Shown here: positions 181-5,367 of the stretch, in pieces
Numbering within the stretch: position 1 is the first letter of the stretch
Layout of the letters: every line of letters starts with the position of its first letter
NCBI GenBank assembly: GCA_002712305.1
Contig: PATE01000091.1
Coordinates: 1 to 5,367 of the forward strand
Length of the DNA stretch: 5,367 bases
Direction: 5' to 3'
Source of the DNA: Gemmatimonadota bacterium
Lineage (GTDB): Bacteria > Latescibacterota > UBA2968 > UBA8231
The notes under the pieces: generated by a model
What the model was told of the DNA's origin: nothing
What the model saw: the letters and a program-made list of their open reading frames with translations, nothing else
Database searches by the model: none
Position numbers and translations under genes: made by a program

Positions 181-2013
181 CTAGGCGCTGTCTCCCGTTG
201 CGTGTTCCGCCAGTTGTGTTCGTGTGCTGATCAGCTCTCGCACGTGCTCGTTCAACGACTGTACTTCACTCTCCAGTCTCGCCTCCTGGGCCTGCCGCAG
301 GCGTCGTGTCGTGTCGTCGATCTGGCGTGTCAGACTCTCGCGCCTCAGATGTAGCAGATGATCCTTCCACAGCTGCCGCGCCTGAGCCTCGTCGAATTCC
401 TCCATGGCGCTCGTGGCCACAAGCTGGCCCAGAGGATCGTCTCCCAGCTCACTCATCAATGCGGACACGTCGATTCGATCGGAACTGGCAAAGCGTGCTC
501 CCAGCAGTTCGACGAGATGGGCCACGAGAGGATCGGTAAACTCGTCCGCCCCCAGTCGCTGAATCGTTGGGCCAATGTACTGAGGGAACTGCAACAGAAG
601 GGCTCCGAATTGTCGTTCCAGCCGCTGCGCCGCTGTCGGTGGCGGCAAAGGTGCCGGACCTTGAGGCGCCTCTGGCTCAGACTGAGGTGCTTCAGATCGA
701 CGCCGGGATGCCGACGTCTTGCGGTGTGCCAGTGATTGCTCCACATCTCGGCGCAGGGCGGTTTCATCCACACCAAATCGCTGGGCTACACGTCGTAGCA
801 TCAGATCCTGCCGAACCGACTCGGTCGTGTCACCCACCAGGGGCAGGAGTTGATCGATGGCGCGGGCCCGGCCCTGGACAGACGTCACATCCATGGTGGA
901 GGCCATGTGATCGAGATATACATCCAGGGCAGCAGGGGCGCTCTCTACCAGTTGGGAGAGCGCCTCAGTACCTGACTCACGAACCAGGGAATCGGGGTCC
1001 TGGCCCTCAGGAAGTGTGACGACGCGAACGTCGAGATCGGTCCTGAGCAGGATTTCGATGCCGCGGACCGCCGCATTCGAACCCGCAGCATCTCCATCGA
1101 AGAGCAGGACCACCTTCTCGGCATAGCGACCCAGAAGCTCAGCATGCTCCGTCGTGAGTGCAGTGCCCGACGCGGCCACGACATTGTCGACGCCCGCCTG
1201 AACTAGACTCAGGACATCCATATAGCCCTCCACGACGATGGCCGTCTTGCTACGACGGATCGGTTCGCGGGATCGGCTCAGCCCATACAGAACCCGGCTC
1301 TTGTGGTAGATGGCCGTCTCGGGTGAATTCAGATACTTCGGCTCATCCTCATCCGACATGGCCCTGGCGCCAAAGGCGATGACGCGACCCGACAGATTGC
1401 TGATGGGGAAGATGATCCGTTGACGGAATCGATCGTAGTGACCCTGCCCGCGCCGGCTGGGCGAGACGAGTCCGGCCTGGCTGAGGACATCGGGTGCAAA
1501 CTGTCGGCGCCCCGCCATTTCAAGAAAACTCGTCCAGCCGCCAGGTGCGAAGCCAAGCTGCTCACGATCGATGACTTCGTCGCTCAAGCCTCTGCCGCGC
1601 AGGTAGCCGAGCGCTTCGGCCCCCTCGGGCTGCCGGATCATGTAGTGATAGTACTTTGTCGCCAGGTCGTGGGCGCGGAAGAGCGGATCGAGGCGATCAT
1701 CCTCTCCCTGACCGCGTTGCTTGGGTAGTTCGATTCCGGCGCGTTCGGCAAGGAACGTGACCGCCTCAATGAAGCTGACCTTGTCGATTTCCTGAACGAA
1801 CTTGAACACGTCACCCGAGACCTGGCAGCCGAAACAGTGATAGAACTGGCGTTGAGCATTGACATTGAAGGAGGGTGTCTTCTCTTCGTGGAAGGGGCAC
1901 AGCCCCGTCCAATTGTTGCCTCGCTGACGCAGTTGCACATGGGCCCCCACGACATCGATGATGTCGGAGCTGTCGCGAACGCGTTCGAGAGTTTCTTCGG
2001 GGATTCGGGCCAT
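181..2013 (-). CDS. dnaG: DNA primase DnaG
   Basis: This is the replicative primase (610 aa, normal length). It makes RNA primers for Okazaki fragments while bound to the DnaB helicase in the cytoplasm. The N-terminal CHC2 zinc ribbon has C39, H42, C60 and C63 within CPFHEEKTPSF...YHCFGC. The catalytic core follows, with RIIFPI (199-204), GRVIAFGAR (209-217) and EPKYLNSPET (224-233). The Toprim metal ligands are E262 and D266 in VEGYMDV, D306 and D308 in LFDGDAAG, and D339 and D341 in GQDPDSLV, so all expected acidic residues are present. A Ser/Pro/Arg-rich linker (about 430-462) leads to a helical C-terminal domain (about 463-605), the expected DnaB-binding part. The start is set by the family N-terminus (IPEETLERVRDSSDIIDVVG), although no Shine-Dalgarno precedes it. 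No rpsU, yqeY or rpoD is visible beside it. The downstream neighbour on the same strand is the tRNA. Confidence 0.98.
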   Translation of the reverse strand: MARIPEETLERVRDSSDIIDVVGAHVQLRQRGNNWTGLCPFHEEKTPSFNVNAQRQFYHCFGCQVSGDVFKFVQEIDKVSFIEAVTFLAERAGIELPKQRGQGEDDRLDPLFRAHDLATKYYHYMIRQPEGAEALGYLRGRGLSDEVIDREQLGFAPGGWTSFLEMAGRRQFAPDVLSQAGLVSPSRRGQGHYDRFRQRIIFPISNLSGRVIAFGARAMSDEDEPKYLNSPETAIYHKSRVLYGLSRSREPIRRSKTAIVVEGYMDVLSLVQAGVDNVVAASGTALTTEHAELLGRYAEKVVLLFDGDAAGSNAAVRGIEILLRTDLDVRVVTLPEGQDPDSLVRESGTEALSQLVESAPAALDVYLDHMASTMDVTSVQGRARAIDQLLPLVGDTTESVRQDLMLRRVAQRFGVDETALRRDVEQSLAHRKTSASRRRSEAPQSEPEAPQGPAPLPPPTAAQRLERQFGALLLQFPQYIGPTIQRLGADEFTDPLVAHLVELLGARFASSDRIDVSALMSELGDDPLGQLVATSAMEEFDEAQARQLWKDHLLHLRRESLTRQIDDTTRRLRQAQEARLESEVQSLNEHVRELISTRTQLAEHATGDSA

Positions 2014-2645: not shown

Positions 2646-2719
2646 CGTACCAGATCCACATAGGCGAACCATCTTTAGCTCACAAGCAAGAACGACTTCG
2701 AGATCGTGTGAATTAGATG

Positions 2720-2725
2720 AGGAGG
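2720..2725 (+). promoter_or_regulatory. ribosome binding site AGGAGG deciding the start at 2735
   Basis: A full AGGAGG stands 9 nt before ATG 2735. An in-frame ATG at 2717 lies immediately upstream of this site and has no ribosome binding site of its own. Starting there would also put six extra residues (MRRIED) ahead of an otherwise classical signal peptide. The 2735 start is preferred. Confidence 0.85.
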
Positions 2726-2734
2726 ATTGAGGAT

Positions 2735-4444
2735 ATGTCGAGAGGCAAAGGGACGCTCTTCGCTCTCGTAGCCATCGGTGCCATGATGGCTTCACCTGTC
2801 GTAGCTGCTACGACATCCGGCGCTGTCGCAGCGACGGATGAACGTGCTCCCGCGGCGGTCACAGATGTGACCGGATTTGCCGGAACGGATGGAGTCGAAA
2901 TCTCCTGGGCCCTTTCGGCCTCCGACTTCGTGCGCCCATCGCCGACCGGGTCGGACTTCACGTCCGGCGGCAGCTTCAGCAACGTCAATGACGTGGCTGG
3001 ATACAATGTCTATCGCGATGACGAACTTGCCGGCTCCGTGAAGGCCGGCGAGACGGCGTTCGTCGATTCGAACGCTATCGGCTCGTCCATCATTTACGTC
3101 GTGACCGCCGTTGACGCCGCAGGCAATGAGAGCGATCACTCCGAAGAGGTCATCATCTCTCTCGGTCCGGCCCCGGTGGCGGTTATCGAAACTCCCGATG
3201 GTGACTATGGCACCATCGATCCTGACGACTTCGATACGCAGACCATCAACATCGAGAACGCTGCGACGGTGGACGATGCCAACCTGACGGTGACCATCAC
3301 CGTCGTCGGCGAGGGTTTCAGTTCCTCGGACGATAGTATCGATCTTGCTCCGGGCGAAGAAGGTTCTGTCGAGATCACCTTCGATGCCGAAGATGTCGAC
3401 AACCTGAATGGCACCTACGTCGGAACCGTGACGGTCAAAACCACCGACCCCGACAATCGCAAGGTGGTCTACGACGTCACCGCAGAGATCGTCGACGGTA
3501 TCGGCCCGACAGAGATTGACATCACCCCTGCTAGCGTCACCTTCGCAGCCACCGTCATCGGTAATACGCGGACGATCGAGCTGACCATCGCCAACATCGG
3601 TCGCCCTACCCTTGAGGGCGAGGTTTCTATCTCCGGCGACGCCGAATTCACCATCGATGTGGACAGCTACTCGCTCGATACCGATGGCGAGGAAGTGGTG
3701 ACTGTCACCTTTGCCCCAACTGCGACTGTCACATCCACCGCGACGATCACGATTACCAGCAACGACGAAGGTGCCCCGAGCACAGATGTCGAGGTCAGCG
3801 GTCGTGGAACGGCCGCGCCCGAAGGTCCTGGTGTGGTCGCAGCTGAGGTGAGCAAGGTCCAGTTGACCTTGGATACGACGCTTCCCACCGAGCAGGCCGA
3901 CATCGACGCTCTCAGAGATCAGATCATCGCAGCGCTATCCGAGGCGCTCGGCATTCCCATCTCGCGATTCGTCGACGTCACCCTTACCGAGGGTTCGGTG
4001 ATCGTCAACTTCACAATCACCCAGACGGTCACAGAAGAGGGTGAGCCCACTGCAGCTGAAGCTGTTGCCACGCTACAGGCGGTTATCGCCGACACGGCGA
4101 CAGCTAACCCGATCACCGCCATCGCTCCCGTCACCGCAGTCGTCGACAACTCTGAAACCGTCGTCCTGCAGCCTGAAGATGCCGACGGCAATCCGGTCTT
4201 GGGTTGGTTCACGCGGGGTGCCTTTGGCAACCAGGTGGCTGTCGATGACTTCTTCGCCTTCGCCGGTGGCTACGGCAAGGCAGACGGCGTGGACGACGAT
4301 TTCGACGCAAAGTTCGATATCGCCGGTCCCGATGGTGATTCCGATCCCGATGGTAAGGTCGGAATCGATGACTTCTTTGCCTTCGCCGAAAACTACGGCA
4401 CCGTGGTCGCCAACGCCGACGAGATCATCGCAGCTCTTCAGTAA
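2735..4444 (+). CDS. secreted multidomain protein: FN3-like, two ASH-like, SEA-like and dockerin-like repeats
   Basis: 569 aa, function unknown, predicted exported. A signal peptide (MSRGKG, hydrophobic core, cleavage near PVVA-A at 24/25) is followed by an FN3-like domain (about 35-145, with GYNVYRD and YVVTAVDAAGNES). Two Ig-like ASH/Hydin-type domains follow (about 147-253 and 258-358, with typical 'VTVTFAPT...ITITSND' strands). Next is an alpha/beta domain (about 370-435) with the SEA-like motif E-G420-S421-V-I-V, then two dockerin-like repeats at 494-514 and 535-555. The second repeat has an EF-hand-like loop with D535, D537, D539, G540, V542 and D546. The first lacks those ligands except D505. 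I see no cysteine, and the protein is strongly acidic (many Asp/Glu, few Lys). The start at 2735 is set by AGGAGG at 9 nt. It is transcribed alone, with its own promoter and long leader and a strong terminator 45 nt after the stop. The next gene is a shorter-domain paralogue. Adhesion, scaffolding or matrix roles are guesses from the domains. Confidence 0.93.
   Translation: MSRGKGTLFALVAIGAMMASPVVAATTSGAVAATDERAPAAVTDVTGFAGTDGVEISWALSASDFVRPSPTGSDFTSGGSFSNVNDVAGYNVYRDDELAGSVKAGETAFVDSNAIGSSIIYVVTAVDAAGNESDHSEEVIISLGPAPVAVIETPDGDYGTIDPDDFDTQTINIENAATVDDANLTVTITVVGEGFSSSDDSIDLAPGEEGSVEITFDAEDVDNLNGTYVGTVTVKTTDPDNRKVVYDVTAEIVDGIGPTEIDITPASVTFAATVIGNTRTIELTIANIGRPTLEGEVSISGDAEFTIDVDSYSLDTDGEEVVTVTFAPTATVTSTATITITSNDEGAPSTDVEVSGRGTAAPEGPGVVAAEVSKVQLTLDTTLPTEQADIDALRDQIIAALSEALGIPISRFVDVTLTEGSVIVNFTITQTVTEEGEPTAAEAVATLQAVIADTATANPITAIAPVTAVVDNSETVVLQPEDADGNPVLGWFTRGAFGNQVAVDDFFAFAGGYGKADGVDDDFDAKFDIAGPDGDSDPDGKVGIDDFFAFAENYGTVVANADEIIAALQ
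4242..4400 (+). repeat. internal duplication coding for the two dockerin-like repeats
   Basis: A 24-bp stretch at 4242-4265 recurs at 4365-4388 with one mismatch (C4255 versus T4378). TACGGCA recurs at the same 123-bp offset (4271-4277 and 4394-4400). At protein level this is V-[AG]-[VI]-D-D-F-F-A-F-A-x-x-Y-G twice, 41 residues apart. The near identity at DNA level suggests recent duplication or gene conversion, or strong constraint on this motif. Confidence 0.8.
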
Positions 4445-4488
4445 CGCGGTCGATCATCTGCCGGCCGTATTCGGCAAGATCCAAATAG

Positions 4489-4529
4489 AAAGCCCCCACC
4501 GATCGCTCGGTGGGGGCTTTTCCTTTTTT
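4489..4529 (+). terminator. strong intrinsic (rho-independent) terminator
   Basis: A perfect inverted repeat, AGCCCCCACCGA (4491-4502) with TCGGTGGGGGCT (4507-4518) around the loop TCGC, extends to 14 pairs when the flanking A4489-4490/T4519-4520 are counted. It is followed by T4521, CC and six T (4524-4529). It lies 44 nt after the stop codon of the upstream gene and should separate it transcriptionally from the downstream paralogue. Confidence 0.95.
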
Positions 4530-4536
4530 CTGTCGG

Positions 4537-4554
4537 ACGTGATCCAGATCACGT
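4537..4554. promoter_or_regulatory. Crp/Fnr-like palindromic operator
   Basis: ACGTGATC, CA, GATCACGT is a perfect 8-bp-arm palindrome. Its core GTGA-N6-TCAC matches the Crp-family consensus TGTGA-N6-TCACA except for the outermost T/A pair. It is just downstream of the terminator and upstream of a candidate promoter. Its centre (4545.5) is about 93 bp before the inferred transcript start near 4639, a class I Crp-like distance. It is a candidate operator for the downstream gene. The regulator is not in the window. Confidence 0.5.
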
Positions 4555-4603
4555 AACCTCAAGTGGCTACAGCAGTTGGCGTCTCTTCGGCTACAGATTC
4601 TGC

Positions 4604-4632
4604 TTGACCACCGCCGCGAAAGCCGATACCGT
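4604..4632 (+). promoter_or_regulatory. candidate promoter of the second secreted-protein gene
   Basis: TTGACC (4604-4609, 5/6 to the -35 consensus) is followed by 17 nt and TACCGT (4627-4632), a weak -10 that keeps the T-A-x-x-x-T pattern. The octamer TGCTTGAC (4601-4608) also occurs at 2431-2438 upstream of the first paralogue. The weak -10 would fit a promoter needing activation. The predicted leader is about 75 nt. Confidence 0.4.
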
Positions 4633-4714
4633 TGTTGATCTGAAGTCGGGCTTCCCATTCAGCCTGTTTGCGGTTCATTTCGCCGCCGAGCACCCGCTCC
4701 GGAGATATTGCAAC

Positions 4715-5367
4715 ATGCGCTCATCCCAACGTCTGTTGTGCACGGCGGCCCTTGTCGTGGCCGCTGTAACCACATCATGGGCAGTAGAGTCCGGCCCAAT
4801 CAGGTCGGTGGACAACATCCCTCCTGCCCCTGTGACAGAGCTACGGGCCTTGAGTACGGGCGACGAAGTGTTGGTGACCTGGACGCAGTCGGTTGATGAC
4901 GCGATCTCCTTTACCCCCTTCGGCGACGCCATCGTGCCCCGCGGGGGTGTGAACGGATATCGTGTCTATCGCACGGTTCAAGGAGAGTCCGCGGAGCTCA
5001 TCGGCATCGTGTCTCCTGGATCCTTCGATTACATCGACGACGCCGCGACTGCAGGTATCACCTACATCTACTCCGTCAAGCCCTTCGACGCCGACAACGA
5101 GACAGACCCGGCCATCGAGCCTGGCTCCGCTGATGATCTCGCGCGAATCATCTCACTGGGTGGTCAGCCGCCGGATGTCGTTGTTGTAACTCGCGTCCAG
5201 AGCCAGATGACCTTCGACGCAGTCATCGATGTCGAGGATGAGGCGGCAGTCGAAGTCTTCGTAACCGACTTCATCACCTTGCTGGCGAATCTTCTCGGCA
5301 TCGATCCCGCGCGGATCAGCGTGACCTCCGTGACTGCAGGCAGTATCGTCGTCGACTTCGAGATCCT
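4715..5367 (+). CDS. secreted FN3-like / SEA-like protein, paralogue of the upstream gene (3' end outside window)
   Basis: This open frame has 217 complete codons and no stop before the window edge, so the C-terminus is unseen. The start ATG has GGAG (4701-4704) 10 nt upstream. The N-terminus is a signal peptide (MRSSQR, core LLCTAALVVAAVTT, cleavage probably after SWA at 23). An FN3-like domain follows (about 35-149), with GYRVYR and a TYIYSVKPFDADNETDP strand that parallels the upstream protein's YVVTAVDAAGNES. The ISLG end of both domains matches too. The alpha/beta SEA-like domain then starts at about 155 (VVVVTRVQSQMTF...LLGIDPARISVTSVTAGSIVVDF), with G209-S210-I-V-V. The two ASH domains of the upstream protein are absent. 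It has its own promoter after a terminator, so it is not in the same operon. By analogy its missing end may carry dockerin-like repeats, which is inference. Function unknown; export and paralogy are well supported. Confidence 0.9.
   Translation, partial: MRSSQRLLCTAALVVAAVTTSWAVESGPIRSVDNIPPAPVTELRALSTGDEVLVTWTQSVDDAISFTPFGDAIVPRGGVNGYRVYRTVQGESAELIGIVSPGSFDYIDDAATAGITYIYSVKPFDADNETDPAIEPGSADDLARIISLGGQPPDVVVVTRVQSQMTFDAVIDVEDEAAVEVFVTDFITLLANLLGIDPARISVTSVTAGSIVVDFEI

Follow-up and report, generated by a model that had tools for sequence, protein, structure and literature searches.

The P1-P2 locus

The window, i.e., the whole stretch of 5,367 nt from contig PATE01000091.1 of a Gemmatimonadota bacterium, carries two tandem genes for secreted proteins, termed here P1 and P2. 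P1 (2717..4444, + strand) is an open reading frame of 575 aa whose product displays a signal peptide, an FN3-like domain, two ASH/choice-of-anchor-D domains, a SEA-like domain and a dockerin-like C-terminus. The signal peptide, FN3-like and dockerin-like parts were assigned by inspection. The Pfam profile ASH (PF15780) matches P1 in two stretches (1e-12), and choice_anch_D matches at 1.9e-11 with 44.4 bits, the cut-off being 45. The second ASH domain, which is Ig-like (3512..3808, + strand; best PF15780 stretch aa 271-355, PF22073 aa 266-364), lies directly N-terminal to the SEA-like domain.

The dockerin-like end of P1 (4190..4441, + strand) displays two VxxDDFFAFAxxYG repeats, recognized by inspection, one of which has an EF-hand-like DSDPDGKVGIDD loop, also seen by inspection. 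A Pfam search of 4190-4441 matched no model. Such repeats (VDFDDFFxFAxxFG) are paired with FN3-like domains in numerous large secreted proteins encoded by the bacterial family to which the window belongs, and are also found at the end of P2 as read in locus L003. In some P1 relatives a CHRD domain is C-terminal to the dockerin-like repeats (L061, 3007-5091, by Pfam; L014, by inspection). The gap between P1 and P2 has an intrinsic terminator with a 15-pair stem and a T run (4488..4521, + strand).

P2 (4715..5367, + strand) is a tandem paralogue of P1 with a signal peptide, an FN3-like domain, a SEA-like domain and a dockerin-like end, and it continues beyond the window. Its SEA-like domain (5177..5367, + strand) is cut by the window end and reaches contig position 5515; the family profile described below matches it at 5177-5515 with 1.1e-40. 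The P2 motif is GSIVVDF, with the Gly-Ser at 5339-5344 (+ strand). Near the window end (~5367) one copy of the locus, L003, has an ambiguous or masked P2 codon near its base 868, which is Leu in the copy L002.

Several genomes of the family keep the gene order dnaG (on the opposite strand), then P1, P2 and rho and, where the contig extends past rho, DUF1385, prfA and prmC follow in the same order; the names of these neighbours were read off translated sequences. P1 and P2 are two secreted proteins among housekeeping genes (window 181-2013, - strand, and 2717-5367, + strand; L003). A tRNA-Met (CAT) gene at the start of the contig (23-99, - strand) adjoins dnaG.

The SEA-like domain and its Gly-Ser

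An earlier note on this DNA had picked out the stretch ...DIDALRDQIIAALSEALGIPISRFVDVTLTEGSVIVNFTIT... of P1 and described a strand, an amphipathic helix, a strand and then E-G-S-V-I-V-N-F. These are present in the open reading frame 2717-4444. The Gly-Ser, however, is not G420-S421 as had been given, but G426-S427 in the motif TEGSVIVNF (3992..3997, + strand), six residues further on, and the range proposed for the domain, 3842-4044, is too short, as it ends before helix 2 and strand 4. A profile match, an AlphaFold2 model and SEA-like structural matches place the domain at aa 373-486 (~3833-4174, + strand). Within it, helix alpha1 comprises aa 393-411 (the DIDALRDQIIAALSEALG region; 3893..3949, + strand; model H21-39), strand beta3 aa 428-436 (VIVNFTITQ; 3998..4024, + strand; model E56-64) and helix alpha2 aa 446-458 (4052..4090, + strand; model H74-86). 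G426-S427, the putative self-cleavage site, is at the beta2-beta3 turn, which in the paralogue model comprises residues 54-56.

A single-sequence search followed by a profile search reveals 21 homologous domains, all of them in the window's own bacterial family. Two matches of the single-sequence search, L017 and L025, were dropped as spurious on reading. The profile search detected no copy outside the family in the 64-genome phylum set or among 386 relatives, and no relatives of the domain were found in viral contigs, plasmids or phages. A search of the family profile against the sequences of solved structures gave chance matches only.

The 21-row alignment has a mean column identity of 46%, and its only invariant columns are G54, S55, F60, I62 and L81. 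The motif is thus more than a chance occurrence, since P2 has GSIVVDF and the Gly and Ser are invariant among the 21 domains. Of the 20 copies read, 16 encode the Ser with AGY and 4 with TCN; a few of these copies are counted twice, as some loci carry both paralogues. The use of both codon types argues that serine itself is selected.

The domain is optional and its position varies. P2 of G004 and of G008, at 243-247 aa, is devoid of it, and the P2 match of several further genomes runs contiguously around the missing domain. The order in P1 of the window is FN3-ASH-ASH-SEA-dockerin-like, and that in other members is FN3-SEA-ASH-ASH-dockerin-like. In all P1 and P2 arrangements seen, the Gly-Ser lies between the FN3 part, which is N-terminal, and the dockerin-like end.

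Sequence relation to SEA, DAG1 and TRADD-N

The Pfam SEA profile PF01390 (cut-off 26.4 bits), which the earlier note had named for a search, has no match in the window's own genome at E 10 and matches none of the 21 members; in a control search it matched MUC1 at 3.7e-14. Membership of the Pfam SEA family is not claimed. The Pfam profile DAG1 (PF05454), which represents dystroglycan, aligns to the family consensus over 79 residues with E 0.0023 and 17.8 bits, below its cut-off of 23.3, and to one family member with 15.8 bits. NCBIfam hydrolase matches at E ~1e-3 were judged to be chance, arising from a helix and a G-x-S-like stretch; thus family matches at E ~1e-3 to 1e-2, that to DAG1 included, are weak when taken alone.

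In the reverse direction, the family HMM scores 14.1 bits against the human dystroglycan SEA domain, which none of 5000 shuffles reach (best 8.3), and 3.4 bits against MUC1, reached by 27 of 5000; the S6 and GlnB controls score lower. An hhalign comparison with dystroglycan has a score of 25.9 and sets the dystroglycan GSIVV on GSVIV, with the cleavage site in register, compared with 15.6 for MUC1, which is weak, and 8.7 for ribosomal S6. The dystroglycan and MUC1 sequences used were confirmed by near-identical or identical chains of solved structures; those of S6 and GlnB may be approximate.

The only curated family found above its own cut-off (23.7 bits), in some members, is TRADD-like_N (PF20694). 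It matches 14 of the 21 members, the best at 5.1e-6, and covers only alpha1-beta2-beta3 (profile ~3-50 of 69). Among the 47 genomes searched in the class, three have a match above the cut-off (one at 26.9 bits, one at 25.5 bits and one, with its neighbours, at 24.1 bits), with P1 (14.3 bits) and P2 (~18-23 bits) below it. Within the class, every TRADD-like_N match found at E 0.01 lands on the SEA-like domain. TRADD-N domains have a conserved small-residue-plus-Ser beta2-beta3 turn that binds TRAF2 as an interaction residue, and their profiles also match DAG1 (PMC8195603). The DAG1/dystroglycan and TRADD-like_N matches, with this link between TRADD-N and DAG1, place the bacterial domain, as judged from sequence, in one superfamily with SEA and TRADD-N and intermediate between the two. 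The intracellular conflict or cell-death adaptor context expected of TRADD-like_N is not found in the family proteins, since these have signal peptides (by inspection) and are fused to ASH/FN3 and dockerin-like parts.

Predicted fold

AlphaFold2 models were built for the P1 domain (model 1; pLDDT 73.2, pTM 0.62) and for a P2 orthologue in L004 (model 2; pLDDT 81.1, pTM 0.74), each from a four-row alignment of sequences from the window and related loci. Both models, of paralogues that are ~30% identical, display beta1-alpha1-beta2-beta3-alpha2-beta4. In model 2 the Gly-Ser is in the turn 54-56, between strands 47-53 and 57-66 (beta2-beta3). Raw Foldseek E-values are not significant for either model (best 0.027 for model 1 and 0.018 for model 2), and a Foldseek search against viral structures gave nothing specific.

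Z scores were obtained by structural re-alignment of the Foldseek list for models 1/2. The best match is EpCAM (Z 11.6/11.0 over 107/104 residues), with Trop2 at 11.1/10.8, phogrin/IA-2 at 8.8/7.7, SorCS2 at 8.1/8.5, dystroglycan at 7.1/7.1, TRADD at 6.8/6.9 and Nup54 at 6.4/7.3. Found with model 2 only are TMPRSS6 (8.1), MUC16 SEA5 (7.9), CELSR1 (7.3), Notch2 (6.9) and cadherin-23 (6.7). One paper (PMC6586460) counts EpCAM, Trop2, IA-2, Notch, cadherin-23 and dystroglycan among the SEA or SEA-like proteins. In the same re-alignment, generic ferredoxin-like proteins (PII, S6, ACT) form a background of Z ~6. Nup54 is reportedly named as SEA-related in the title of the 2017 survey by Pei and Grishin, as cited in PMC6586460. 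Of the other structural matches, SorCS2, TMPRSS6 and CELSR1 we take to be SEA or SEA-like.

Thus the P1 region of about aa 373-486 and its P2 counterpart are predicted, with good support, to be a SEA-superfamily domain with a four-stranded ferredoxin-like sandwich. Support for the SEA-like fold suggested in the earlier note comes from the two models, for which SEA or SEA-like domains rank first among the structural matches, and from a weak in-register sequence match to dystroglycan. Structure prediction, which that note had proposed as a check, yields a SEA-type sandwich with the Gly-Ser in the predicted beta2-beta3 turn. The models thus predict both the beta-alpha-beta-beta-alpha-beta sandwich of the SEA superfamily and the feature of its cleaving members, a Gly-Ser with hydrophobic residues in the beta2-beta3 turn.

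Possible self-cleavage and alternative explanations

Among animal proteins, SEA autoproteolysis is known from mucins, dystroglycan and receptors. The self-cleaving site is G-S[V/I]VV, with the break between Gly and Ser (PMC10687090), and both GSVIV of P1 and GSIVV of P2 fit it. Putative self-cleavage of the domain is consistent with motif and architecture and stands at about even odds. It is favoured because the motif fits, the Gly-Ser is invariant and the Ser is kept across a codon switch. TRADD-N, however, keeps a Gly/Ser turn without known cleavage, so conservation of the Gly-Ser does not by itself imply cutting. The reading we prefer, with a probability of roughly 0.48, is that of an optional SEA-type module in secreted proteins, set between the Ig/FN3 part and the dockerin-like end and self-cleaving at its Gly-Ser. 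Counting against it are the failure of PF01390 to match any member, raw Foldseek E-values that are not significant, and models built on four sequences each.

The match to TRADD-like_N also bears on a different reading, in which the domain is a ferredoxin-like domain of SEA/TRADD-N type that does not cleave itself, the Gly-Ser is a turn or binding motif, as the TRAF2-binding turn would suggest, and the domain is a spacer or interaction module of a surface protein. We regard this as somewhat less probable than the preferred reading. No other curated family exceeds its cut-off; however, the TRADD-like_N matches are confined to three secondary structure elements, the proteins here are secreted and TRADD-N proteins are not, and the residues that follow the Gly-Ser fit a SEA cleavage site. 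EpCAM, Trop2 and SorCS2 also match the fold better than does TRADD, with a Z for EpCAM of 11.6 versus 6.8.

The likeness to SEA might instead be convergent, in a generic ferredoxin-like domain whose Gly-Ser is an ordinary tight beta-turn. The fold is common, the unrelated PII, S6 and ACT reach the background Z, the raw Foldseek E-values are weak, and weak family matches extend to unrelated hydrolases. Against this, SEA and SEA-like proteins take nearly all top places with both models, the best of them well over background, and the dystroglycan match lies beyond all shuffles while those of the S6 and GlnB controls do not, which makes convergence unlikely. Least probable, and very much so, is a domain that another protease cleaves in a regulated manner, as in Notch or EpCAM. 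SEA-like domains that do not cleave themselves, such as that of Notch, do contain sites at which other proteases cut (PMC6586460), and EpCAM and Trop2 come closest in fold; however, the Notch domain is described as lacking an autoproteolytic site (PMC6586460), whereas the Gly-Ser is invariant here, and no cognate protease was identified.

If the self-cleaving SEA-type module is real, strain at the beta2-beta3 turn on folding would drive attack of Ser427 on the Gly426 carbonyl, and the ester at Gly426-Ser427 would hydrolyse to give two chains held by their shared sheet. A split between the Ig/FN3 part and the dockerin-like end would then follow from the architecture. The N-terminal part may hang non-covalently from a C-terminal stub, perhaps to be released mechanically, and the stub may be anchored through the dockerin-like end. 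A broader proposal, that these are genuine self-cleaving SEA domains of dystroglycan/mucin kind in a bacterial secreted family, that they join displayed Ig/FN3 domains to a dockerin-type anchor non-covalently and perhaps so that force can release them, and that SEA autoproteolysis is older than or exists outside eukaryotes, is tentative and rated somewhat short of even.

No account of bacterial SEA domains was found among the papers searched, which does not amount to absence from the literature. A bacterial self-cleaving SEA domain, if true, would be a small and readily expressed model of strain-driven peptide self-cleavage. It would also help to trace where SEA and TRADD-N domains come from, and point to a way for bacteria to make breakable joints in surface proteins.

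Comparison with known systems

The dystroglycan SEA domain (DAG1, PF05454; PDB 8yt8, 9c3c) has the same fold as that predicted here, with the Gly-Ser at the same turn, and the motifs are near-identical (VTAGSIVVDF in P2, ITRGSIVVEW in dystroglycan). An Ig/cadherin-like domain is found just before the dystroglycan SEA domain, and in P1 an Ig-like ASH domain has the same place. Dystroglycan is, however, an animal membrane protein with a membrane helix, whereas the bacterial proteins have dockerin-like ends, as seen by inspection. Canonical SEA domains (PF01390; MUC1, MUC16) share with the bacterial domain the order of strands and helices and the G-S-[VI]-[VI]-V site. They differ in that the bacterial domain has no PF01390 match and is of bacterial origin, though MUC16 SEA5 matches model 2. 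The SEA-like domain of EpCAM and Trop2 is the closest in fold but has only ~6-10% identity to the bacterial domain, and is not known to self-cleave. TRADD-N (PF20694) has in common the Gly/Ser turn and the alpha1-beta2-beta3 sequence match, and bacterial members are known; TRADD-N proteins are intracellular immunity and cell-death adaptors, whereas the bacterial family described here is secreted.
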